64,000 nucleotides of DNA from Eubacterium sp. (GTDB lineage: Bacteria; Bacillota; Clostridia; Lachnospirales; Lachnospiraceae). Numbering within the stretch: position 1 is the stretch's first letter; each line of letters starts with the position of its first letter. Location: contig JAFQXO010000011.1 in assembly GCA_017406925.1 (NCBI GenBank), forward strand, positions 248,001 through 312,000, given 5' to 3'. Shown here piece by piece: positions 1,109-15,853 of this stretch. Made by a program: the position numbers and the translations under genes. The notes below the pieces were generated by a model. The model did not search any database. It was not told where the DNA came from and was given only the letters and a program-made list of their open reading frames with translations.

Positions 1109-3127
1109 CTATGACGCAAAACCTATAACTCTTTGTTCTTCTTTTTCTTTATCTCTATAACTTGCAGGCATTTCTATGTCACAATCTTTGATAGTTCTAA
1201 TGTCGCTCTTCTTAACTGAATCATAATCCATATCTACTAAACGACTAGCTTGCGCCATCCTAGCATCTTCCAAAAGGTTGCGCACAAATCTGCCATTACC
1301 GAAATCATCACATTCACACGCGGTCTCAAAAATCTTGTGCATCTTATCAATCGAATCATCAGTTAAGATTAGTTCTTCTTTCTCGGCCATAAGCTTGGCG
1401 ATGTCGCACAGCTCATCAGGTGTATAATCATCAAATGGAACATGAAACGCAATACGAGATCTAAGCCCTGGGTTTTTATCGAGAAACATTTCCATCTCCT
1501 TAGGATAGCCAGCAAACACAACAACTACATCTTCTCTATGGTTTTCCATCTCCTGAACAATAGTGTTAATCGCTTCGTCTCCGTAACCACCAAATTTATC
1601 TTCGACTAATGAGTAAGCCTCATCTATAAACAGAACTCCACCCTTTGCTTCCCTAAACTTTTTCTGAACTATCTTCGCAGTCCAGCCTACATATTTCCCA
1701 ACAAGATCTCCACGACCTACTTCTATCATGTGTCCGTTGGACAATACCTTGTTGTCACGAAGAATCTTCGCAAACAATCTAGCCACTGAAGTCTTTGCAG
1801 TGCCAGGGTTTCCAGTGAACACCATATGCATAGCTGGATTACTCTTTTTCATTCCTTTCTCGGCAAACATCTTCTGCGCTCTATAATAATCCAAGGCCTT
1901 ATCAATGATTTTTTTCACTTCAGTTAAACCAATCATCTTAGCCAACTCATCATACGCTAAACCTTTTTTCTTCTTATTATCAGTTTTCTTGATAGTGGTT
2001 ATCTCTTTATACTGAGGAAATACGGTGTTCTTAATCTTTAACTGGTACCATTCATCAAATATTTCATTTAACTCCTTTGTATAATACTTTTCACCAGGCT
2101 CAATCTTTTCCGTAAGTTTTTTGTCAGACCTTATACTATATTCCTTAGCCCTACTCTTCAGATAATCTATAGACTTTTCGTCATCAGACAAGTCTTCTTC
2201 AATCTCCACAAAAGACATATTGTGAAAATTTTCATAAATCATCGATTTAACCCTATTACATTTATTAGAAAAACATAAAATAGTCAAAACTTTATTTCTA
2301 TATTTCATGATATCTCTACACAGGCATTCTATTGCTTCGTAGTCACCCGTTGCTAGATTACTTTCGCCACTATCTTCTAAATCTATACACATAATAACAG
2401 TGCCTCCTTCGGCGTTCTCGTACATTTGCAAACAATTCTTTCTTGAAATACTTTCACCATTATTCGACACTTGAGCAATACTACATCTTTTGCTCAATAC
2501 TCTCTTGTTGTTATATAGTGCTGAAATCAATACATTAACCAAATCTTTTTGCAATAATACATCACTCGTTTGAATCATATAGTGTACTGGATGAGCAGCC
2601 TTTTTCAGTTCAACCACTCTCTCATAAATACGATCTAGTTCAGGAATCAGAGTGTCATCACACATACATTCCTTCGCCCAAGAATATGTCTTGTTTTTAT
2701 CAATAGGTGATACCATCATCTCATTAAAAGGATTACCTCCAAAGTGATGATTCAACTCACACAGATTAAACTGTTCAACAATCTCATACTTATCATATAT
2801 AAACGATTTGCGATCTGCATTTAATAGCATAGTATTTGCATTTTTTAATGTCGTTTCCTCTATCGTTATATTCTCTGCAGCAATATGTATGTTTTCCAAA
2901 AAACTTATGGTTCTTTTTCTTATTCCATCACCATTATTGGCGATGACTCCGATTCTTATTCTTATCGCAGAAATAGAAGAGACAAAGTAAAAATCATCTC
3001 TCGCTTTGTTAAACTCTCTAATTGTTCCTTCTATTTTTTCTTTAGCACCATTAAATTCTTCTCTATTGTTATATATTTCTTTCCAATCATTATCTTTAAT
3101 GTCTCCATTAATCTCAAAAAACAACAT
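1109..3127 (-). CDS. AAA+ ATPase of the CbbX/SpoVK type with degenerate N-terminal half
   Basis: A 672-residue protein whose C-terminal half is a clear CbbX/SpoVK/EccA-like AAA+ module: Walker A GNPGTAKT at 439-446 (the usual second glycine is alanine), Walker B GVLFIDEA at 497-504, a sensor-like NPGLRSR arginine segment, and the C-terminal lid with GNGRFVRNL. The first 390 residues lack a P-loop but have strand-helix periodicity (for example VIMCIDLED) that could be a degenerate ATPase domain; this part is inference. Family members form hexamers that remodel a protein partner. First gene of a three-gene operon, with a promoter carrying the same 20-bp palindrome as the WYL gene. The ATG at 3127 has an AAGGAG site. 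The partner substrate is unknown. Confidence 0.9.
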   Translation of the reverse strand: MLFFEINGDIKDNDWKEIYNNREEFNGAKEKIEGTIREFNKARDDFYFVSSISAIRIRIGVIANNGDGIRKRTISFLENIHIAAENITIEETTLKNANTMLLNADRKSFIYDKYEIVEQFNLCELNHHFGGNPFNEMMVSPIDKNKTYSWAKECMCDDTLIPELDRIYERVVELKKAAHPVHYMIQTSDVLLQKDLVNVLISALYNNKRVLSKRCSIAQVSNNGESISRKNCLQMYENAEGGTVIMCIDLEDSGESNLATGDYEAIECLCRDIMKYRNKVLTILCFSNKCNRVKSMIYENFHNMSFVEIEEDLSDDEKSIDYLKSRAKEYSIRSDKKLTEKIEPGEKYYTKELNEIFDEWYQLKIKNTVFPQYKEITTIKKTDNKKKKGLAYDELAKMIGLTEVKKIIDKALDYYRAQKMFAEKGMKKSNPAMHMVFTGNPGTAKTSVARLFAKILRDNKVLSNGHMIEVGRGDLVGKYVGWTAKIVQKKFREAKGGVLFIDEAYSLVEDKFGGYGDEAINTIVQEMENHREDVVVVFAGYPKEMEMFLDKNPGLRSRIAFHVPFDDYTPDELCDIAKLMAEKEELILTDDSIDKMHKIFETACECDDFGNGRFVRNLLEDARMAQASRLVDMDYDSVKKSDIRTIKDCDIEMPASYRDKEKEEQRVIGFAS

Positions 3128-3251: not shown

Positions 3252-4235
3252 CTAATATTTTTTAATCGCTTCCTTCAGACTCTTCTTAACACTTTCCCTC
3301 AAAGACTTAGGGCTGATGATTTCCACAAAGTTAGCATATTGCATAGCCCAATGCTCCATAGCTAGTGGACTTGCTTTGATTACCACCTTAACCTTGCTAT
3401 CATCATCACGCACCTTGCTAATCTTCGCCTCATCGCCAAACCAATCTACAATCTGATCAATAATATTAACCGTTGCTTCAAAAGTAACCCTCACTGGTTT
3501 ATCGGCGTACATATACGGCATCGCTGTGGAAAGAAGTTTATAATCTATTCCATTCTCAAAGCCCTTCAAGCTCCTCAAAGGTGTAGCCTTATCATCTAAC
3601 ACTTCCATATTTGTGATGTGATCCATTCTGTGATATACGATGTTCTTCCAATAATCATTATATCCCATCAAATAGTATCGCTGATTATGCAGAATAAGTT
3701 GATACGGACTTAAATGCTGCGTCGAAGTTTTGTGAAGCTTCTTATCTATATCATACTTATTGTAGTCGTATTTGATCTGCCTACCCTTACTGATAGCCTC
3801 ATCTACTAATTCTATGTTGTAGAACAATGCTTGATTGTCCGTTTTACTCCATTCATTCACCGAAGTAACATTCTTCACACATGATCTAAAATACTTACTT
3901 GATAATCCACACAATTTTTCAATCAAGTTCTTCGAATGCACGGCTGAAATATGTTTACTACTAAGCACTCCATCAATCAACATATGAAGTTCAGAATCCT
4001 CGAAATCTCTGATTTCAATATAGGAACCCTTCCTACTAGACTCAATCTCCACTCCCATCTCTCGAAGTAAAGAAAGATTTCTGCTCACAGCTTTTCTCTC
4101 AATCGAAATTCCATAATCCTTCTTCAAATAATTTTGAATATCCTTTTGCGTCAATGGATGATTATAATCGCTATAATATTTCAAGATATCCCATGTCCTG
4201 ATCAGGGCCATTTTCTTAGGTTCAAAATTAGCCAT
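3252..4235 (-). CDS. WYL-domain transcriptional regulator
   Basis: A 327-residue protein with an N-terminal winged helix-turn-helix (about residues 1-70, including LTQKDIQNYLKKDYG and a basic RKAVSRNLSLLREMG recognition region), a middle linker, a WYL-type SH3-like domain (about 135-225, containing LSPYQLILHNQRYYLMGYN and YHRMDHI) and a WCX-like C-terminal domain. WYL proteins sense ligands, often nucleic acids or nucleotides, and several (BrxR, CapW, PafBC relatives) control phage-defence or DNA-damage genes. It is monocistronic, lying between two terminators and between two operons that carry the same palindromic promoter motif as its own promoter, which suggests it controls both and itself. 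Whether it represses or activates cannot be told from sequence. The start has a GGAGGTG site. Confidence 0.92.
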   Translation of the reverse strand: MANFEPKKMALIRTWDILKYYSDYNHPLTQKDIQNYLKKDYGISIERKAVSRNLSLLREMGVEIESSRKGSYIEIRDFEDSELHMLIDGVLSSKHISAVHSKNLIEKLCGLSSKYFRSCVKNVTSVNEWSKTDNQALFYNIELVDEAISKGRQIKYDYNKYDIDKKLHKTSTQHLSPYQLILHNQRYYLMGYNDYWKNIVYHRMDHITNMEVLDDKATPLRSLKGFENGIDYKLLSTAMPYMYADKPVRVTFEATVNIIDQIVDWFGDEAKISKVRDDDSKVKVVIKASPLAMEHWAMQYANFVEIISPKSLRESVKKSLKEAIKKY

Positions 4236-4270: not shown

Positions 4271-4290
4271 TTGTACCTTTTTAGGTACAT
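4271..4290 (-). promoter_or_regulatory. Palindromic operator/promoter of WYL gene
   Basis: The best of three related sites: a TGTACC/GGTACA inverted repeat around a TTTTTA centre, 35 bases upstream of the WYL start. On the minus strand a GATAAT -10-like box follows 16 bases after the GG of AAAAAGG. Just upstream lies GGGCAAG (plus strand), also found beside the 12521 site. Confidence 0.6.
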
Positions 4291-4298
4291 AAGGGCAA

Positions 4299-4338
4299 GA
4301 AAAAAGAGGCGGAAGAATTTGAGTTTTTCCACCTCTTT
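4299..4338 (-). terminator. Terminator after the PLD-helicase operon
   Basis: An AAAGAGG / CCTCTTT stem extended by GGAA/TTCC with one mismatch, followed on the minus strand by a six-T run. It lies about 100 bases after the helicase stop codon, between it and the WYL promoter, and marks the end of the seven-gene operon. The rest of the 208-base gap (4236-4443) contains only the WYL promoter and two AGTTGTCA direct repeats at 4384 and 4403. Confidence 0.75.
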
Positions 4339-4443
4339 CATATGGGATTATTGTTTTTTTAGAAAAATTCCTTCATTGTCCCAAGTTGTCATCTTAGGTT
4401 ATAGTTGTCAACATTAGCATCTTTCATTGTATTATTTATCTCC

Positions 4444-7251
4444 TTAATTTTTAATAATTTCAAAATCATATTGTAAATAATCCGGCAAATCATTATCTAA
4501 AGGAATATCATAAAGATACGTAACGCTTTCTTTTCTTGTATTAAAGTCCATTTTTTCTTGCCTTCGCTCATTTGTAAAATGACCTTCGCCAACATAAATA
4601 AATGGAAGCGTAATACCATGCTCATTTGCAACTTTTCGAATAAAAATATGTGCACATTTGCATGCCCTTAGTTTTTTCAAATCTTTTTCTCTAATATTTA
4701 TTTCACATTCCCATTGAAGCAAATTCGATTGCAAAAATTTATTTTTATACTTTAATCTATCTTCTACAGATGAATCTTTTTTTAATTCAGCAAACACTAT
4801 TGCTTCATCATCATAGAAATACGTTCCCTTCTGATTGTGCTCTGGGTTCTTTAATAATTTTAATTGAACCTGATCAATCCTATAACTTTGCCATAAAACA
4901 AACCTTTCATCGTTTTTATAAGTAATATCATACCGAGAAATTCCATAATCAATTAAATCTTCAAGATATTCTATCAGTTGATCGTCCAATTCAATATTTA
5001 GAGTATATTTGTTTTTCAATTTAGAAATTGCGCCTTTTCTTTGCATGAACTCTAACGTATGATCAATTTCACCTTCAGAACAGTTTTGAATATTGTCTTT
5101 TAAAACATCGGTCAATTCATCTTTGCTTAATTCTTTTTTAATAAGATTTTTTATTACCAAAAACTCGTGCTTTCTGACTAGTGGGATTAAATTTGATGCG
5201 TATTTAATAAAATCTATTTGATCCTGTTTAAAAAGCGGTATATTTTCTTCTCCGATTTCTTTCAAAAAATTGTAATAACAGCCTGTAACTCTTCTATTAT
5301 TATTATTTCCTAGCCTTACTTTCATAAATTTCAATAAGTCAGGTGCGCAATCGTTATTAAAATAATCCATATGCTTTGGATAATCTTCTACATTGATATA
5401 CTGTTTAAAATTCTTATAGTCTTGCTCAAGATATGATTTTTTATTGAAATTTTCCTTATCTATATAATTAATTATGTCTTTTTGACTTTCTTTATCAAAG
5501 TCTATTTTCACTCCATACTCTTCCAGTCCTAATGCAGAATAATTATCTTTTACAAGTGATTTCATAAGAGTTTTTTCCATAATATAGTTTTGCGAAAGAC
5601 TTCCCATCGCAAGCGCTATTTGAACGCTTCTTCTATAACTATTTCCTATAAAATCTAGCACTGTAGCAAACGTCTTATCTTTATATTTCCTGAGGCCTCT
5701 TCCTAATTGCTGAATAAAAATAGTTGCACTCTCTGTAGGGCGTAAAAATAGAATCATATTACATCCCGGAATATCCACGCCCTCATTCAATATATCTACG
5801 GTGCAAAGTATTTCTAAAGATCCTTCCTCATTACTTTGCAAATCATTATAAGCACTAATTCTCTCTCCAATATTATTTTTACCTGTTAAATATGCCGTTT
5901 TATATCCCTGTTCAAGCAACCCTTCAGACATCATCCGCGCATGATTAATATTTTTACAAAAAGCAATTGCTTTTAGTTTCCCTTTGGGTCTATATTTTTC
6001 GATCTTCTCTTTTATAAATTCGCAGTGTTCCTCAGTTGCTAGCTGAGCAATCATTTTATACTCTTCTTTTGGTTTTAACCCATAATCAATTAAACTATCC
6101 CTGATACCATAATAATGAAAAGGTACAACAAGCTCATTAATAATTGCATCTCTTAATCGTAATTCAAAAGGAACATTCGTATCAAACAACTCAAAAACAT
6201 CTTCATTATCCATTCTCTCTGGCGTGGCTGTCAAACCTACTAAAAAAGCAGGCTTAAAGTAATTAATAATTCTTTTATAAGTATTTGCTATTGCATGATG
6301 ACATTCATCCAGTATGATATAATCAAATTCGTCCTGTCTAAATAATTCTAAGTTTTTACTTAAAATGATATTTCCCGCGAACAAAAAATCTGTATCAATA
6401 TCTTTACTGTCTTTATTAAAAATCCCATAACTAACTGTATTACCAAATACTTTTTGAAAGGAATCTAATGCCTTATGTAATATTGATCCCTCATGAACAA
6501 TATATAAGAGTTTTCGAGGATTAAAATTTCTTGCATCAAATGCTGCCAAATATGTTTTTCCACTTCCAGATGCCGCAACAACTAACGCTTTACTAATACC
6601 CATAGTTCTATATCGGTTCAGTTCCTTCATCGCTCTTCTCTGCATATAATTTGGCTTAACCAATTCAGATGGGCTTTCATAATCCATATCCCATCGTTCA
6701 ATGGCGTAATTTAATTTTTGATAGTACTGATTTATTATATCCCTATCCAAAATAAACGAATTATTCCATTTGTCATAATATTCAGCTTTAACATTTTCAA
6801 ATACTATTTCTGTTTTGTTATCTTTTACTACCAAATCCCATTCTATATTTTTCAATAAAGCATATCTAGTAATATTAGATGATCCTATTATCAATTCTGC
6901 CTCATCACCAAACTCAAAATAATATCCTTTTGAATGAAAACCGATTACTGAATACGCATTATCATGAAAACTTTCAAAATCTAAGCGGCATTCAAAATTA
7001 TCATAGTCATCCATTAAACGTCTGAAATAGTTTAAAGATTCAATATCTGTAAAATTCTGATATGTTGAAGTGATTATTTTTCCTTTTACCCCGCGAGCAA
7101 GCGACGCCTCCAAATGATTACTCAACAAATCCAGCCCAGCTTTTTTAATAAAACTCACAGAGAAACTAAACGAATCGCATTGTCTCAAATTATCCTTGAT
7201 TCGTTCTAAAAATGTTTGTTCTGTATAGTTTGTTAAAAATAAACTTTTCAT
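4444..7251 (-). CDS. PLD-nuclease / SF2 helicase / DUF3427 protein
   Basis: A 935-residue three-domain protein. Residues 1-170 resemble a phospholipase-D-type nuclease with one HxK half-site (H106, K108) followed by IIGSSN at 121-126. Residues about 200-560 form an SF2 DEAD/DEAH helicase: Walker A AASGSGKT (226-233), DECH (315-318), TATPER (341-346), a second RecA lobe with TVDILNEGVDIP and the motif VI arginines in QQLGRGLRK. The C-terminal part (about 720-935) matches the DUF3427 pattern, with FVLWQSY and FIYVGEG. This architecture is known from restriction- and defence-linked helicases, and is expected to translocate on DNA and cut it. It is the last gene of the operon, 15 bases after the PD-(D/E)XK gene, with an AGGAG site. 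It differs from DISARM, where the PLD protein and helicase are separate. Confidence 0.9.
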   Translation of the reverse strand: MKSLFLTNYTEQTFLERIKDNLRQCDSFSFSVSFIKKAGLDLLSNHLEASLARGVKGKIITSTYQNFTDIESLNYFRRLMDDYDNFECRLDFESFHDNAYSVIGFHSKGYYFEFGDEAELIIGSSNITRYALLKNIEWDLVVKDNKTEIVFENVKAEYYDKWNNSFILDRDIINQYYQKLNYAIERWDMDYESPSELVKPNYMQRRAMKELNRYRTMGISKALVVAASGSGKTYLAAFDARNFNPRKLLYIVHEGSILHKALDSFQKVFGNTVSYGIFNKDSKDIDTDFLFAGNIILSKNLELFRQDEFDYIILDECHHAIANTYKRIINYFKPAFLVGLTATPERMDNEDVFELFDTNVPFELRLRDAIINELVVPFHYYGIRDSLIDYGLKPKEEYKMIAQLATEEHCEFIKEKIEKYRPKGKLKAIAFCKNINHARMMSEGLLEQGYKTAYLTGKNNIGERISAYNDLQSNEEGSLEILCTVDILNEGVDIPGCNMILFLRPTESATIFIQQLGRGLRKYKDKTFATVLDFIGNSYRRSVQIALAMGSLSQNYIMEKTLMKSLVKDNYSALGLEEYGVKIDFDKESQKDIINYIDKENFNKKSYLEQDYKNFKQYINVEDYPKHMDYFNNDCAPDLLKFMKVRLGNNNNRRVTGCYYNFLKEIGEENIPLFKQDQIDFIKYASNLIPLVRKHEFLVIKNLIKKELSKDELTDVLKDNIQNCSEGEIDHTLEFMQRKGAISKLKNKYTLNIELDDQLIEYLEDLIDYGISRYDITYKNDERFVLWQSYRIDQVQLKLLKNPEHNQKGTYFYDDEAIVFAELKKDSSVEDRLKYKNKFLQSNLLQWECEINIREKDLKKLRACKCAHIFIRKVANEHGITLPFIYVGEGHFTNERRQEKMDFNTRKESVTYLYDIPLDNDLPDYLQYDFEIIKN

Positions 7252-7266
7252 TTACTCTCCTAATTA

Positions 7267-7974
7267 TTATTTTATTTCATGCAATAAAAATATAAATTCA
7301 TCATTTCCTCCAACTTCTAGTTTATTATAGCATTGCCAATTGCACGGGTATTCCCCATCTATTTCTATTGCATCTGTCCTTCCTCTTTTTGTTCCCTTAC
7401 CGGTATTTCCCAGCCAATTAAGTGGTTTCACAATTTTGTTATCCAAAAGATTTCCGTTCTTATCCTTTTCTTTTTCAGCAATCGAAAACATCGCATAGTA
7501 TGGTTTGATTAGTTTTCCTTTTTTATCAAACTTTCTTCGTGATGATTTTTTGTACGAGTGGTCGTTTGTGAGAAATACCGTATAACCTTTTAGAAAACGT
7601 CTTTTAGTTGCTGGATCATTTTTAATGTCCTGTATTCGTTTAATATCTTTTATATAATCATAACATCCACAATCTTTTGCCCCCTGATGCTTTAAGCAAT
7701 ACTCCACATCATCGTCTATATAATCCAATGTGGTTGTTTTATATTTAACTTCAATAGGAATCCATTCCTTTTTCTTTCCCCAAATAACTAATATGTCTAA
7801 ATGAATAAATATCCCGTTCAATTCAACAGGATATTCACACCTTACTTCAGTTTTATCACTATACATTTCTTTTATTTTCCATGCCAACGCCAATTGAAAA
7901 TCTGCCTCTGATACAAATATTTTTCTTTCGCTTTTTAGTTTTAATAATACTGCTTCTAAATCAAATTCTTTCAT
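7267..7974 (-). CDS. Small PD-(D/E)XK nuclease-like protein
   Basis: 235 residues with a recognisable PD-(D/E)XK core near the N-terminus: E23 in a helix (SEADFQLALAWKI), D60 in HLDILVI, and E75-V-K77 in IPIEVKYK, the classic D-x(n)-ExK arrangement. The remaining 150 residues are basic and contain the cysteine-bearing GAKDCGCYDYI segment and no known domain. Family knowledge suggests a metal-dependent endonuclease or a degenerate DNA-binding relative; all three core residues are present, so activity is plausible. It lies 15 bases before the PLD-helicase gene and 7 bases after the TM2 gene, suggesting it works with the helicase as a nuclease/translocase pair. Specific family not recognised. 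Confidence 0.8.
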   Translation of the reverse strand: MKEFDLEAVLLKLKSERKIFVSEADFQLALAWKIKEMYSDKTEVRCEYPVELNGIFIHLDILVIWGKKKEWIPIEVKYKTTTLDYIDDDVEYCLKHQGAKDCGCYDYIKDIKRIQDIKNDPATKRRFLKGYTVFLTNDHSYKKSSRRKFDKKGKLIKPYYAMFSIAEKEKDKNGNLLDNKIVKPLNWLGNTGKGTKRGRTDAIEIDGEYPCNWQCYNKLEVGGNDEFIFLLHEIK

Positions 7975-7981
7975 TCTACTT

Positions 7982-8209
7982 CTATCTCCTTAACGGCACT
8001 CCCACATTATCCTTAAATGTTCCTAGTAATATTCTGATAATATCTATCGCCCAACCTATTCCAAACAACCCAAATGTGAATAGATAAATAATTCCCCAAA
8101 AAAATCGACCTACATAAAAATAATGCACACCAAATACTCCAAAAAGAACGCATAAAAACAATGCTACCCATTTACTTTTACCACTTGTTATTGTTAGATA
8201 TGAATTCAT
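7982..8209 (-). CDS. TM2-domain small membrane protein
   Basis: A 75-residue protein matching the TM2 family: a K-x-x-x-A-x-x-L helix, the G-x-x-G-x-H-x-F-Y-x-G-R turn (FGVFGVHYFYVGR), a second hydrophobic helix with GxxGIGW and the closing D-x-x-R-x-L-x-G segment. Two membrane helices with a short loop are predicted by eye. It sits between two nuclease-like genes with gaps of 17 and 7 bases, so it is co-transcribed with them. TM2 proteins are widespread and poorly understood; in this setting it could be a membrane anchor or membrane-acting effector of the defence operon, but that is inference from location only. Confidence 0.88.
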   Translation of the reverse strand: MNSYLTITSGKSKWVALFLCVLFGVFGVHYFYVGRFFWGIIYLFTFGLFGIGWAIDIIRILLGTFKDNVGVPLRR

Positions 8210-8226
8210 AGTTTCTCTTTAAATCA

Positions 8227-9510
8227 TTATTCCTCAATTATATAGTATTTGCTTATTTGTTTTTTTACATCTTCCATTGAATCTTTAATATTCTTCACAA
8301 AATCTTTTTCTAACTCCATGCCTTCGAACAGTCTCAACATTCCCGTTTCTTCATTAGCATAATCTTCAAAGTCTATCTCATAATTTTTATACTCTAAATT
8401 TTCCCAGTACAACCAGGAGTCTTTGGTTTCTCCTATACCAATTTTATTATTTTCATTTTCGACATCAACATTAGCATTAGCACCCCTTATTACATCGCCT
8501 TCAACTTTTCGCAAAGTTAAGCCTGAATAAAGTTTTTCTCCTATTTCGATGAAAAAAAATACTTCAATTTTTTCATCTTGATTATCTATTGCTTCTCTTA
8601 AATTAGTTTTTATCTTTTCTTTGTCTATTTTTGCGGCTATAGCCGGCCATGATCGTTTTCCATATACATAATAATCACTAATATCAGATTTGAATAATGT
8701 TAGTTTATTGTCTAGTTTTTCCATAAATCTTGGTTCAAACCAATAATCACTACATTCGTTATTAATGGTTTCCATCACTTTTGACAATAAATCACCAAGT
8801 GCCTCTTTTCTATAATCATATAACTGATCGATTTTTTTAATGTCCTCTACATTTTTTATCACTTCTTTATATTCCATAAATGTATCTCCTGATATTTTTT
8901 TGCATAAACTAATATACTGTTTTATCGAGCTTATATATTCTTTGTATTTTAATATATTCTTTCTTTCGCATACTTGTTCCAAAACACAAACTATATCTTT
9001 CTTTAATGTTTTGTTAATTACATCATTTCCGCCTGTTTGATTTTTGCGTGATCCCGGAGTTAAAAAATAAACATTCCCATTTTTATATCCGTTTTCATTT
9101 AAAAATTTTCTATATCTTTCTAATTGTTTCGGCTGTTCTCCTGCCCATATTTTCAATTCTACTACTATTGCTTGTCTTTCTTCACTTACATTGGTTTTAT
9201 AAGTAATAAAAAAATCTAAACGACCATAATTGGTGGAATATTCGCGATAAACACTGATATTGGAGTATTCTTTATCAGCGTCCACTATTTGCTTCAATAG
9301 TAGGTTTGCATTTTCTTCATCTATTCCTTTACCATTTTTGAATGGTTTGAAAATATAATATAAAAAAGCAGAGTGCGCTGAAACCTCCTTGTTTTCCATT
9401 CCTAAAATGGAAAACAAGTTTATTTCTTCAAGAGGATTATGCTCTTGGAGTTTTACTCTATCTAATAATTCAATCAATTCTTTTTGTTGCTTCTCTTTCA
9501 TCTCACTCAT
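8227..9510 (-). CDS. PD-(D/E)XK nuclease superfamily protein (PDDEXK_4-like)
   Basis: A 427-residue protein with the features of the PDDEXK_4 (PF14281) family: an N-terminal NLFSILGMENKEVSAHS segment (conserved E42, H46-S47), GRLDFFI with D99, the ELK catalytic motif at 118-120 and a following Q-x-x-x-L-x-R-Y helix (EQPKQLERY). The C-terminal 230 residues are less conserved and may bind the target. Members appear as single genes or in defence islands, and their nucleic-acid targets are mostly unknown. Its ATG at 9510 overlaps the upstream stop codon by eight bases and has no strong ribosome site of its own, pointing to translational coupling with the 9503-10351 gene. It is the second PD-(D/E)XK protein in the operon. 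Confidence 0.88.
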   Translation of the reverse strand: MSEMKEKQQKELIELLDRVKLQEHNPLEEINLFSILGMENKEVSAHSAFLYYIFKPFKNGKGIDEENANLLLKQIVDADKEYSNISVYREYSTNYGRLDFFITYKTNVSEERQAIVVELKIWAGEQPKQLERYRKFLNENGYKNGNVYFLTPGSRKNQTGGNDVINKTLKKDIVCVLEQVCERKNILKYKEYISSIKQYISLCKKISGDTFMEYKEVIKNVEDIKKIDQLYDYRKEALGDLLSKVMETINNECSDYWFEPRFMEKLDNKLTLFKSDISDYYVYGKRSWPAIAAKIDKEKIKTNLREAIDNQDEKIEVFFFIEIGEKLYSGLTLRKVEGDVIRGANANVDVENENNKIGIGETKDSWLYWENLEYKNYEIDFEDYANEETGMLRLFEGMELEKDFVKNIKDSMEDVKKQISKYYIIEE

Positions 9511-10351
9511 CCAAATAACACTTATAGTGTTCGCTATTGTCCGCTTTGCAATTTACATCACTGATACCATTATACCTGTTTAAACCGAACATTTCCACGC
9601 ACCATTCAATCAATTCATCACCACATATATAGGGACTTGCGTATATGATGGCTTTGCCATTTTTAATTTCTACTCTACCTCTTGGATAATAGTCGAACGG
9701 CTTGTTGTTGGTATCTTTCTTTTCTAGTTTTTCCCATGTTAGCTTATGGTTGTAGTTGTCTTTCTTCTTGGAGTTTAAGTCTAGATTTCCAACATTTTGA
9801 ACATTGCCCTGGGCGTCCACAAGAATGGTGAGAACTACATTATCCGTGAAGTCGTCTGTGTCTTTAATCCAAAAGATGCCTTTGGTTAGAGTTTGATTTC
9901 TTTCCTCTTTGCACGTTGGTAAATTATTATAATCGGGCATTTGGGGGAAACCATCATCGTTATATTTGAACTCGACGGTTTCTCCATAAGTATCATTCCA
10001 TATGCTAACTGCTGCCTCATATCCTGTAGCTGCCTTTATATTAGACTTATCCGTGGTTGATTTTATAAAATGCGACTCCCACACAGACTCCATAATTTTT
10101 ATAAATTCTTTCTTTTGATCTTTGGTGAACATTTTCACAAGTGTATCATGGTGTGTAAAATAATCGGCTTTATCTAACCTTATATAAAAACAAGATTCTC
10201 TGTTTCGACTTTTATCAAAATACACATGCAAGTGAGGAACTGAGCCTTCACCACTTTGTTCTAGTTCAACTTGAATGTTTGTAGTTTTACAGAGTTGTGG
10301 ATTAATAATCGACATTGCTACATCGTTAAATTTACTTAATGATTTTTTCAT
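9503..10351 (-). CDS. Unknown two-module protein (PHxH module plus YYPRGRV module)
   Basis: A 282-residue soluble protein of unknown function. Residues about 25-145 contain SVPHLHVYF, DKADYFTHH, a W-x-x-A-x-x-x-W-N helix and PQMPDYNNL; the 139-residue protein at 17930-18349 has the same landmarks in the same order, so they are paralogues over this region. Residues about 205-282 contain KPFDYYPRGRVEI, an IIYASP strand and the ending SEHYKCYLDE; the protein at 10982-12481 has a matching C-terminus. The PHxHV strand recalls DUF4160 proteins, but the rest does not match clearly. It is translationally coupled to the PDDEXK_4-like gene downstream, implying a close functional partnership, perhaps as sensor or cofactor. 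Confidence 0.75.
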   Translation of the reverse strand: MKKSLSKFNDVAMSIINPQLCKTTNIQVELEQSGEGSVPHLHVYFDKSRNRESCFYIRLDKADYFTHHDTLVKMFTKDQKKEFIKIMESVWESHFIKSTTDKSNIKAATGYEAAVSIWNDTYGETVEFKYNDDGFPQMPDYNNLPTCKEERNQTLTKGIFWIKDTDDFTDNVVLTILVDAQGNVQNVGNLDLNSKKKDNYNHKLTWEKLEKKDTNNKPFDYYPRGRVEIKNGKAIIYASPYICGDELIEWCVEMFGLNRYNGISDVNCKADNSEHYKCYLDE

Positions 10352-10380
10352 AATTCGAGGTCCTTTCTTGGTGGGATACT

Positions 10381-10965
10381 TTAAATGATTCTCGTTAATA
10401 TAGGTTCATATCTAGAGATACTAAGTACATTACCAGTATCTATGAGGTAAACCTGGCAATTATTTCTTTGCTTTTTATTCAAGATAATTTGTTCTAAATC
10501 ATTCTCCAAAGCGTCTCTCGAGTTATCATACTCTGCAATAACATGACCAATTACATAATCATTATTTAAACCTGTAGAAATGCGCTTTAGACCATTTTGA
10601 TCCTTGTAAATGACACTATCTTGTGAATATTTAGTTCCTAGTCGGAGGGCGTCCTTTAATGAAATGCCATAAATAATCATACCGGACTCATCTATCTGCT
10701 CATTCTTTTCGTTTGTCCAACGCGCTACAATATGACAATATCTGCATTTTAAACCTAGAGTTTCGCCTCTTAGTTCTGTTGTTTTATCCAAGCTTGAACT
10801 ACACGTGCCAATAATCGCAAGTTTCGTATCGCTGTTGCTGGATAATGAACTTATTATCCTATTTCTGGCGTATTCACTTACTTTTTTAGTATTATATGCT
10901 TCATCTAATTCGTCTTTGATATATTTGTTATATGTTTTTCCTTTATATAACTCTCTATCAAACAT
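10381..10965 (-). CDS. Small DUF3293-like protein of unknown function
   Basis: A 194-residue protein. I place the start at the ATG at 10965 (MFDRELYKG) because it has an AAAGGAG site at good distance and avoids overlap with the upstream gene; an earlier ATG would add 21 unconvincing residues inside that gene. The centre has CRYCHIVARW, then ESGMIIYGISLKDALRLG and YSQDSVIYKD. This order (substrate-facing strand, E-E/S-x-φ-φ-x-GIS, then helix and Q-x-x-V-I-Y) is typical of DUF3293 and of related small phage or plasmid proteins. No catalytic residues are known for the family. It is the second gene of the seven-gene operon and shares the IS...IYKD motif with the protein at 383-1096. Confidence 0.72.
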   Translation of the reverse strand: MFDRELYKGKTYNKYIKDELDEAYNTKKVSEYARNRIISSLSSNSDTKLAIIGTCSSSLDKTTELRGETLGLKCRYCHIVARWTNEKNEQIDESGMIIYGISLKDALRLGTKYSQDSVIYKDQNGLKRISTGLNNDYVIGHVIAEYDNSRDALENDLEQIILNKKQRNNCQVYLIDTGNVLSISRYEPILTRII

Positions 10966-10981
10966 TATTAGCTCCTTTCGA

Positions 10982-12481
10982 TTACTCGTGATAATTAGGG
11001 TTACATTTATGGCATTTATAATGTTCATCTAATTCGACAGTGTATTTTCCTGTTGGTATTTCAAAAACATCAATAATGGCATCTATATATTCTTGGGTGT
11101 TCAAATCACTATCAACATAGATAATGTACTTGTCTTCGACATAATTGTACGCTACTCGACCCCTTGGATAATAATCATACTCATGGTCACTGAATGGTTT
11201 ACCATCCTTGCATAGCACATCCCAAAAACTGTAATGATCTTTTTTAGAATCTTTAAAGTCTCCATAAGTGTCGCTTATATCTTTGATGTTTTCAGTATCT
11301 GCAAACACTTCATTATTTATAATATAAAAGGGGCCAATCTGAGGATACTCACCATAATTTACAGTTTCTGGCTTGCATAAGATGTCTCCTTTTTCGAATG
11401 GAAGTGGAAACTCAAACCATTGCTGTTCAAAAGCATCACGAAGGGCAAAATCTTCTTTCAGGTTTTCGCTGACAAAATCTGTTTCTGTGATTTCCAAATC
11501 ACGGTTTAATCTCACCATCTGTGGACTTTTATCGTTCTTTCCAGTTGTAATTCTATATACTTTGGAATACAAAACCTTATTTTCGGGACATTCTATATCA
11601 TGCTCTTCTATTTCTTTCTTGATCGATCCACATGCATCTTTGAAAGTTTCATAACATCCGTTTTCATATTCTTTGCCATATTCCAATTTATCATCGCTTG
11701 TGGTTTCACAAATTTTTACTTTGTATACATGTGGATCTTTATACTCTTTTTCTAGGTTGAAATACTTGTTCGTGTACTTCTTCGACAATTCGATATGTTG
11801 TCTTAACATATCATGAAAGCTCTTAATGTTATGTTTTCCCCAAGGCAAAACAATATCTACTTCAAAATCAGCAGTGAACTCAATTAAGTCTTCGAAGGCT
11901 TCATACTTTTCTTCTTGTGTGGTTTTAGTGCTCCAAAAAATAAGCCATGCTATTTGCTCTGGCGAAAATTCATAAAGAGGAATGTCGTTTTTCAGATATT
12001 CTCTAATGTCTCTTGAATTTATAAATTTATATATGTCTAGTTTTTTTCTTCCAGGCTTAATAGTGACGCATAGTTTTCCGTTCTTCTCTTCAGCTGTCTG
12101 ATATATATTCTTGCCCAAAAAGATGTTATTGTCTTCATACTCAACGACATAGTTGATTACATTACCGTCTTTATATCCGATATTCATTTGAGTGATGTCT
12201 TTGTTCTTCATACGGTTATATGATGTTGGCTCCCGATTCTCGCCAAACCAATGACACTCTTCTTCATCAGGCGAAATAATTCTATCTTCTAGTAGCACAA
12301 AACTAACTTTGCGAGCACGATTCCATTCAACCGTTTCTTCCGAATCATCATTCACATCTCTCTTTTCTATATAACTTTCAAAATTAAACTCTTCAAATTC
12401 ATCAATGTTGAATTTAAGCCAATCTCCATTCTCAAAAATTAATTCTACATTTTTAATTTCTTTCTTATCGTGAATGGCCAT
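10982..12481 (-). CDS. Unknown 499-residue protein, first gene of the defence-like operon
   Basis: A large acidic soluble protein with no family I recognise. It begins with a strand-rich region (LIFENGDWLKFNIDEFEEF), has an aromatic-rich middle (EFSPEQIAWLIFWSTKT) and a segment EFPLPFEKGDILCKPE that reads like a beta-barrel domain. The last 75 residues (SDHEYDYYPRGRV, KYIIYVDSDL, DEHYKCHKC) match the C-terminus of the protein at 9503-10351, so the two share a module. The final HYKCHKCNPNYHE could bind a metal through Cys and His, but this is speculation. Start codon follows an AAAAGGAG site; the palindromic promoter motif lies 39 bases upstream. It precedes six tightly spaced genes and is divergent from the lipase gene. 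Confidence 0.75.
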   Translation of the reverse strand: MAIHDKKEIKNVELIFENGDWLKFNIDEFEEFNFESYIEKRDVNDDSEETVEWNRARKVSFVLLEDRIISPDEEECHWFGENREPTSYNRMKNKDITQMNIGYKDGNVINYVVEYEDNNIFLGKNIYQTAEEKNGKLCVTIKPGRKKLDIYKFINSRDIREYLKNDIPLYEFSPEQIAWLIFWSTKTTQEEKYEAFEDLIEFTADFEVDIVLPWGKHNIKSFHDMLRQHIELSKKYTNKYFNLEKEYKDPHVYKVKICETTSDDKLEYGKEYENGCYETFKDACGSIKKEIEEHDIECPENKVLYSKVYRITTGKNDKSPQMVRLNRDLEITETDFVSENLKEDFALRDAFEQQWFEFPLPFEKGDILCKPETVNYGEYPQIGPFYIINNEVFADTENIKDISDTYGDFKDSKKDHYSFWDVLCKDGKPFSDHEYDYYPRGRVAYNYVEDKYIIYVDSDLNTQEYIDAIIDVFEIPTGKYTVELDEHYKCHKCNPNYHE

Positions 12482-15286: not shown

Positions 15287-15853
15287 CTACTTGCGATACT
15301 TAATCTTATATCTTCCGTAAGGTTTATTCTTAGCCTTCTTGAAATACTTAGCTGCCTTACTGCATTTATAAACATAGATTTTCGTTCCCTGCAAGCCTTC
15401 CTCTGTCTCCATTATCTGCTTACCTATCTTCTTGACTGTCTTTGGGAAGTAAATCTTCTTAAGATATGTGTCTGCGAAACATCTCTTTCCGAGTTTTCTC
15501 ACACCCTTCTTCATAACAATCTTCTTGAGACCGCTGAAAACAAACGCTTCTGCTCTTATAGTCTTGCAAGTTCCAGGAATGATTACAGTTCTAGTCTTTG
15601 CTGGATAACCTTCAACCACCTCGAACGCACCACCAGCGATTGCTTTTACTTTCTTTGGAATCTTGACTGTCTTCTTGCTTCCAACGTAGCGAATAAGGAC
15701 TTTGTTCTTGATGATAAATCCGTTCTTATCTGCCTTCTTCACTAACGCTTTCCATGCTGCCGATGCATCGTCCGCCGCCTTTATTGGCTGCGCCACAAAT
15801 GCCATCGAAAATACAAGTGACAACGTCAATACTGCTGCAACTAATTTTTTCAT
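15287..15853 (-). CDS. Secreted BspA-type leucine-rich repeat protein
   Basis: 188 residues with a signal peptide (MKKLVAAVLTLSLVFSMAF, cleavage near QPIKAAD). The mature part is basic and carries LRR_5-type repeats: VKIPKKVKAIAGGAF, VIIPGTCKTIRAEAFVFSGLKKI, RKLGKRCFADTYLKKIYFPKTVKKIG. The last 30 residues are lysine- and tyrosine-rich (KAAKYFKKAKNKPYGRYKIKYRK), again suggesting binding to the anionic wall. It starts two bases after the broken mini-gene at 15856 and is downstream of the SpoIIE-type phosphatase gene. Single-domain LRR proteins like this are common in gut Clostridia; role in adhesion is possible but unproven. Confidence 0.85.
   Translation of the reverse strand: MKKLVAAVLTLSLVFSMAFVAQPIKAADDASAAWKALVKKADKNGFIIKNKVLIRYVGSKKTVKIPKKVKAIAGGAFEVVEGYPAKTRTVIIPGTCKTIRAEAFVFSGLKKIVMKKGVRKLGKRCFADTYLKKIYFPKTVKKIGKQIMETEEGLQGTKIYVYKCSKAAKYFKKAKNKPYGRYKIKYRK

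Follow-up and report, generated by a model that had tools for sequence, protein, structure and literature searches.

The DNA considered here, called the window throughout, is a stretch of 64,000 nucleotides from a Eubacterium genome (assembly GCA_017406925.1, contig JAFQXO010000011.1, positions 248,001 to 312,000), and its positions 4444-12481 are filled by seven open reading frames (ORFs) on the minus strand. An earlier note, made from the letters alone, had put these genes forward as an undescribed seven-gene defence system. Comparison with other genomes leads to a different picture: the genes probably belong to a mosaic restriction island, one of a loose family of Clostridial islands associated with a WYL-domain regulator. 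The seven-gene set does not recur, and what deserves attention in its place is a WYL-AAA block and a small domain without a Pfam or PHROGs model, the latter found in 98 places, some of them near-duplicates.

The restriction enzyme of the island can be named, which the earlier note had not done. Judged by its sequence, the protein of 935 amino acids (aa) encoded at 4444-7251 on the minus strand, i.e., by the last of the seven genes, is a SauUSI-type enzyme, a Type IV restriction enzyme for modified cytosine. SauUSI itself is the protein in PDB entry 7CLG, and the excerpt of its paper used here (PMC7913695) describes a dimeric PLD nuclease with ATP-driven translocation and recognition of modified cytosine, built of four parts and marked by the nuclease motif H-x-K-x4-E. 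The same four-part architecture (PLD nuclease, SF2 ATPase, coupler and DUF3427) is present in the window's protein, which matches 7CLG over residues 6-921 (phmmer, E 3.3e-115) and the PADLOC family mREase_IV at E 1.5e-116. Pfam matches comprise ResIII (E 4.7e-33), Helicase_C (E 3.5e-15), PLDc_2 and, at residues 686-925, DUF3427 (PF11907, E 3e-23); in the alignment with SauUSI the nuclease motif is kept as H-S-K-GYYF-E, together with Walker A and the DExH box. The two differ in their setting, the window's gene sitting in a multi-gene operon.

The link to a wider family of islands comes from the block that follows. Past the terminator of the seven genes, and outside the coordinates of the earlier note, the same strand continues with genes for a WYL-domain regulator, an AAA+ ATPase, a 237-aa protein and a leucine-rich repeat (LRR) protein, which run on to position 1 and beyond. 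The WYL gene (3252-4235, minus strand; PF13280 E 9e-8, WCX E 7e-7) encodes a protein with a weak Pfam match to a helix-turn-helix at its N-terminus (HTH_11, E 0.013), and it is the sole match to PF13280 found in this genome assembly, which is 84% complete. The 672-aa ATPase (1109-3127, minus strand) resembles CbbX, SpoVK and EccA in its C-terminal part: the likeness starts at about residue 392, CbbX (3syk) is matched over residues 396-658 at E 1.6e-51, and some 390 N-terminal residues fall outside these matches. The 237-aa gene lies at 383-1096 on the minus strand, and only the start of the BspA-type LRR gene (246 aa, L191:1630-2370; PF13306 E 5e-39) is in the window, at 1-370 on the same strand; a macro-domain gene follows it outside the window with an 8-bp overlap. 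The distances along the minus strand are 208 bp from the seven genes to WYL, 124 bp from WYL to AAA and 12 bp from AAA to the 237-aa gene.

This block returns in other genomes with other cargo. In a stretch from the same genus (L048), the WYL, AAA (53% identical), 237-aa (44% identical) and LRR genes keep the window's order, with a small extra gene between the first two; ahead of them stand GmrSD, one more gene and a 171-aa protein related to the N-terminus of the 499-aa protein. Relatives of the WYL protein with 55-68% identity are found in L048 (68%), L066 (63%), L068 (62%), L190 (60%), L077 (59%), L064 (57%) and L095 (55%). Beside them stand GmrSD in L048, L064 and L190 (two GmrSD proteins each in the latter two), a DUF2779-cluster protein in each of L066 and L068, and two PDDEXK_4 proteins, one below the cut-off, plus a DUF2779-cluster protein in L095; no cargo was recognised beside the relative in L077. 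The names GmrSD, PDDEXK_4, DUF2779 and macro derive from family calls on individual proteins, and the DUF2779 label of L066, L068 and L095 rests on clustering with L120. The GmrSD enzymes are of Type IV as well, unrelated to SauUSI and found outside the window. In L048, the WYL-AAA block is also seen to lie 3' of a YobI-ATPase protein together with GmrSD (L048:3366-9631; PADLOC HEC-05 E 3e-184).

A documented precedent for such a neighbourhood is given by the BrxR-type WYL repressors, which occur beside Type IV enzymes: the excerpted text of PMC9122601 counts a Type IV restriction gene in 37 of 210 BrxR-associated systems, and the window's WYL gene likewise adjoins one. BrxR homologues are mostly proteobacterial (338 of 347 in the same excerpt), whereas the relatives of the window's WYL protein are Clostridial, and no PDB chain was matched by the latter (phmmer, E 0.01), BrxR itself lying outside direct comparison.

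With regard to the genomic site, one genome of the same genus (G252, stretch L247) has the flavin reductase, macro and lipase genes of the window's flanks, and the island is absent. Its interval between macro and lipase (L247:5457-8908) holds a 371-aa protein with a weak NucS_C match, a C-5 cytosine methylase (PF00145, E 4e-60), a TM2 gene and a 188-aa gene. The TM2 gene, 68-69% identical to that of the window, adjoins the 188-aa gene in G252 and G250, and G259 shows a partial case, cut by the end of a contig. The window has its 188-aa gene (15287-15853) on the far side of the lipase, away from TM2. The pairing in relatives points to TM2 (7982-8209, minus strand; 75 aa, PF05154 E 6e-16) as a resident gene around which the others came in, and it is read here in that way and not as cargo. 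The GC content of the seven genes, 0.29-0.36 versus 0.40 for 14460-64000, also speaks for the mosaic reading. On the same ground, i.e., its position next to the resident 188-aa gene in relatives, TM2 was rejected as a membrane component of defence. The comparison also suggests, from sequence and from one comparator, that a 5-methylcytosine (m5C) methylase cassette and m5C-dependent restriction alternate at one site. One would not expect an m5C methylase and SauUSI to be compatible. With this one comparator as the example, methylation of m5C and restriction that depends on it may exclude each other at one locus.

The second recurring element is a domain of about 110 aa, here called the PRGR-HY module, which is characterized by H-x3-W, PRGR and HY. 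Its H, W, PRGR and HY are invariant in 15 sequences from Clostridia and Alphaproteobacteria, and nine members, scanned against Pfam and PHROGs at E 0.01, gave no match. The earlier note had seen that the 282- and 499-aa proteins have a C-terminal module in common, and this observation holds (29% over 126 columns, E 2.6e-7). In the 282-aa protein (9503-10351, minus strand; conserved residues H202, W206, P223-R226, H275 and Y276), the module is fused to an N-terminal PH-x-H domain. In the 499-aa protein (10982-12481, minus strand), it takes up residues ~380-491, behind an N-terminal domain (~7-145, matching phrog_2349 at E 2.5e-10) and a middle "NS..I" domain (~146-380), relatives of which occur as separate proteins in L010-L012.

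What accompanies this module elsewhere? The 98 loci comprise 80 genomic ones (out of 105 relatives in a genome-contig scan) and 18 viral ones, and they are partly dependent: L069 and L070 are near-identical stretches, L112 and L113 likewise, and the same-genus search overlaps with the genome-contig scan (L069, L070, L085). Of the 80 genomic loci, 38 have WYL, 23 have AAA and 18 have the two together; the middle domain of the 499-aa protein is present in 32, and at least one of the three in 57. By chance, WYL would be expected at 0.72 loci (not a fraction, but fewer than one locus), on a base rate of 101 WYL matches among the 180.5 Mb (rounded sizes) of 60 family genomes; this rate stands for one family, the loci being broader. 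In all 23 cases AAA shares the strand of the module, at a median distance of 734 bp, and so does WYL in 32 of 38 and the middle domain in 27 of 32; relatives of AAA occupy 11 places (E 1e-75), the window's own included, in the family sample, i.e., 250 genomes, one per genus, with the window's genome among them. Since WYL and AAA are missing from many module loci, they are common companions and not obligatory ones.

These loci also bear on the first alternative, in which the module proteins and their neighbours are plasmid or phage accessory genes, for replication, RNA repair or counter-defence, that now lie in a chromosome with a restriction enzyme as their chance neighbour. The module does occur beside PolC, DnaB and DnaX on plasmid pCY186, on pRUMAL01, and on 15 viral contigs (7-202 kb) that together hold it 18 times. 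Its neighbours include proteins that, from the starts of their sequences, we take to be RtcB, NADAR, KptA, SLOG (GHRPERL), DnaB and HicB; on these presumed names, 17 of the 80 genomic loci have an RtcB-like cluster and 16 a GHRPERL-type one, and 13 of all 98 loci have a DnaB-like one. Nevertheless, WYL and AAA accompany the genomic loci and none of the 18 viral ones (the 499 middle domain is found in one), and several of the WYL relatives nearest to the window's have the restriction enzymes GmrSD or PDDEXK_4 as neighbours, so that an origin as mere accessory genes is unlikely. Matches on plasmids were obtained for the 282-aa (2 records), 499-aa (4 records) and 235-aa proteins (6 records), and the rest of the seven-gene set was not found in the plasmid stretches examined, from which H6, H8 and H12 were left out.

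A second alternative is the one from which this work started: the seven genes as one dedicated, conserved defence system that works as a unit. Their arrangement speaks for it. The intergenic gaps, in the order of transcription, are 16, 29, -8, 17, 7 and 15 bp; these figures take the 215-aa DUF3293-like ORF from its second ATG (194 aa, 10381-10965), where the ribosome-binding site (RBS) sits, and the 215-aa version, from 11028, overlaps the 499-aa gene. AGGAG-like RBSs precede five of the seven genes (499, 194-aa, 282, 235 and SauUSI), TM2 has a weak AAAGAG alone, and the 427-aa gene, with no RBS in its upstream sequence, overlaps the preceding 282-aa gene by 8 bp. An intrinsic terminator, a hairpin with a T run at 4290-4350 on the minus strand (-17.3 kcal/mol, z -4.2), lies 3' of the last gene; it was overlooked by a pattern scan because its loop exceeds the length that the scan allows. 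The tight packing and the one terminator of the earlier note are thus borne out. As for its one promoter, 62 promoter-like matches stand against 60.8 in shuffles, no excess, so that this part is not confirmed and is something we can only infer.

Single parts of the set also recur near the module: a homologue of the 235-aa protein stands directly behind AAA in L111, and PDDEXK_4 was found by profile near the module in two of the 98 loci (L095 and L127). The set as a whole is another matter. A comparison of gene neighbourhoods, which the earlier note had proposed as a check, was run on 58 SauUSI regions and the 98 module loci, and the genes are not conserved together. At E 1e-3, not one of the other six genes turned up in the 58 regions. 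These come from related genomes and were taken from 75 places outside the window's own; one region holds two places, and some stop at contig ends, the shortest at 5.7 kb. A WYL gene is present in two of them, and the closest SauUSI relative (G206, 67% identical, L165) adjoins a Nudix gene and none of the window's partners. In the family sample, the 499-aa protein is matched in 7 genomes, the 235-aa in 3, the 282-aa in 4 and the 427-aa in 3 (E 1e-8), and SauUSI in 65 (E 1e-60); at these thresholds, no genome other than the window's own pairs the 235- or 427-aa protein with the 282- or 499-aa one. By tblastn at E 1e-4, the 98 module loci hold the 235-aa protein once, the 427-aa protein once and a partial helicase match of 24% once (L103), and TM2 and the DUF3293-like protein in none. 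With TM2 adjoining a resident gene in relatives, a working unit of seven is very improbable, and the undescribed system of the earlier note falls with it. In one genome (G130), a SauUSI gene and a relative of the 499 middle domain occur on different contigs.

The same note had set the genes apart from DISARM, Gabija, Hachiman and BREX, rightly so: a PADLOC scan of six of the seven genes, TM2 being left out, did not give the signature proteins of these or of other named multi-gene systems. The bulk of a protein was covered by mREase_IV and PDC-S26 alone, and the matches to DrmC, PbeA, ZacB and Type I are partial. The proposed defence role therefore holds as membership of known or candidate families (mREase_IV and 7CLG for the 935-aa protein, PDC-S26 for the 427-aa one) and not as the task of one seven-gene system.

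Finally, WYL and AAA might run a response to RNA damage or nucleotide stress that has nothing to do with phage defence, a reading that is hardly credible. In its favour one could cite the macro-domain gene behind the window's own block and, elsewhere, the neighbours of the module that are presumed to resemble RtcB, KptA and NADAR. WYL factors have been proposed to sense RNA ends, according to the excerpt of PMC9503650 used here; however, the recognisable enzymes of this locus are DNA nucleases, and the macro gene is also present at this site in G252, without the island.

How, then, might the mosaic restriction island work? The SauUSI-type enzyme would be its main effector: it would recognise modified cytosine in incoming DNA through DUF3427, translocate with ATP and cut with its dimeric PLD nuclease, and the 427- and 235-aa nucleases would add further cutting. 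The WYL protein may control the expression of its neighbours, and the AAA and PRGR-HY proteins, which probably act jointly on nucleotides or nucleic acid, would be what stays constant from island to island. Exchange would affect the nuclease cassettes, here around the resident TM2 gene. The seven genes may be co-transcribed cargo and not an obligate complex. A more specific version of this scheme can be offered tentatively. It sees a Clostridial conflict island of an undescribed class, with a core of the CbbX-like AAA+ and PRGR-HY proteins under WYL, for which SauUSI, GmrSD, PDDEXK_4 and DUF2779 proteins are exchangeable cargo; the core perhaps loads, activates or restrains the nuclease that is present, and m5C restriction and methylase alternate between strains. 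If the core does govern whichever nuclease is present, Clostridia would have in it a regulator or adaptor that serves restriction in general.

Several findings weigh against the island as read here. WYL is missing from 42 of the 80 genomic module loci, and 23 of the 80 lack WYL, AAA and the 499 middle domain altogether, as do 17 of the 18 viral loci. Exchange at the site is seen in one comparator, G252, the only one of five lipase regions flanked by macro and flavin reductase. The seven genes are parted from WYL by 208 bp and a terminator, which makes control of the operon by WYL a matter that we infer. With regard to the effector, three of the five residues of the modelled m5C pocket of SauUSI (Y831, F841, I842, D858 and W868) differ in the window's protein, Y831 being changed to T, I842 to A and D858 to N, and F841 and W868 are kept, in one pairwise alignment read by hand; the target may thus be other than m5C. 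A further difference is that the window's enzyme lacks the Nudix neighbour of most of its sampled relatives: a search at E 0.1, confined to the window, L017 and L018 within this genome, gave no match.

The remaining members of the array deserve a few words. The 427-aa protein (8227-9510, minus strand) is a PD-(D/E)XK protein by its match to PDDEXK_4 (PF14281, E 8.5e-15) and matches PDC-S26, a family that PADLOC lists as a candidate only, over residues 4-420 (E 3.8e-41); no paper under the name PDC-S26 was found in the openly licensed PMC literature. The 235-aa protein (7267-7974, minus strand) has no family match in the libraries scanned, and E23, D60, E75 and K77 are invariant in seven aligned sequences, i.e., in this protein and all six relatives, as expected of a PD-(D/E)XK-type nuclease with the pattern E, D, E-x-K. 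Its family also occurs alone elsewhere: phage head genes surround two of the relatives, and a BREX-5 locus holds one. No significant relative in PDB was found with profiles of the 282, 235 and 499 families, the best being a Cas4 chain matched by the 235 profile at E 0.52. The 194-aa protein (10381-10965, minus strand; ORF of 215 aa from 11028), which has a AAAGGAGC site before its second ATG, is DUF3293-like with a match below the cut-off (PF11697, E 3.5e-4), and no paper on DUF3293 was found in the same literature. The domain calls of the earlier note stand for ResIII, Helicase_C, PLDc_2, DUF3427, PDDEXK_4, TM2 and the E/D/E-x-K residues of the 235-aa protein, and for DUF3293 at sub-threshold level only. 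The 194-aa protein and the 237-aa protein of the WYL-AAA block, whose 44% identical counterpart has the same place in L048, have a short motif in common (36 residues, E 5e-5).

As for the two module proteins, no Pfam, NCBIfam or PADLOC family matched the 499-aa protein, which also gave no tblastn match in the phage collection. For the N-terminus of the 282-aa protein, DUF4160 appeared in one relative (E 0.045) and Cass2 in another (E 0.0072), with nothing in the window's own protein. This N-terminal domain recurs near the module in L055, L081, L122, L132 and L143. On the last of these, a viral contig, the two domains that are fused in the window are adjoining separate genes (7587-8357), which suggests that they work together. 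The module is also seen fused to other proteins. One partner is a fragment like DNA polymerase III alpha (L046:4235-5815, with PF07733 at E 4e-20, and L050:5316-6890), a fusion whose cluster occurs in 11 of the 98 loci. Another is a DnaA/Hda-like ATPase (L029:9986-10831) on pCY186, a plasmid of Butyrivibrio proteoclasticus, in the replication cluster of PolC, DnaB and DnaX and downstream of a WYL gene. A 251-aa family, exemplified by L118:17464-18216, clusters near the module in 20 of the 98 loci; Pfam and PADLOC gave no match for the one member that was scanned.

Another observation concerns the SauUSI enzymes of other genomes. In 40 of the 58 regions (L165-L182, L205-L244), SauUSI has a MutT/NudG-like Nudix gene no more than 300 bp away and on its own strand, and this applies to 35 of the 41 regions whose alignment reaches residue 880. 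The observation also draws on stretches L201-L203 and L245. In the first 18 regions it is adjacent by this measure in 15 and present anywhere in the stretch in 17. No Nudix gene was found in the Fusobacterium SauUSI stretch; plasmid records of Hymenobacter, L. curvatus, L. plantarum and S. aureus list one next to their SauUSI relatives. A figure legend in PMC7641849 places MutT homologues beside SauUSI homologues in Streptococcus, and no other paper joining Nudix and SauUSI was found in the portions of text searched in the openly licensed PMC literature. As a working hypothesis, the Nudix enzyme may keep modified cytosine out of host DNA or destroy the modified dNTP pool of a phage, a testable idea on how cells that restrict modified cytosine avoid cutting themselves. 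The nearest solved structure to the Nudix protein of L165 is 3GWY (E 1.3e-25), for which the excerpt of PMC5158307 used here reports hydrolysis of 5-Me-dCTP (kcat/Km 4.8e6) and of "5-MeOH-dCTP" (4.4e6), the latter taken as 5-hydroxymethyl-dCTP. The same L165 protein matches a further PADLOC candidate family, PDC-S07, at E 9e-49.

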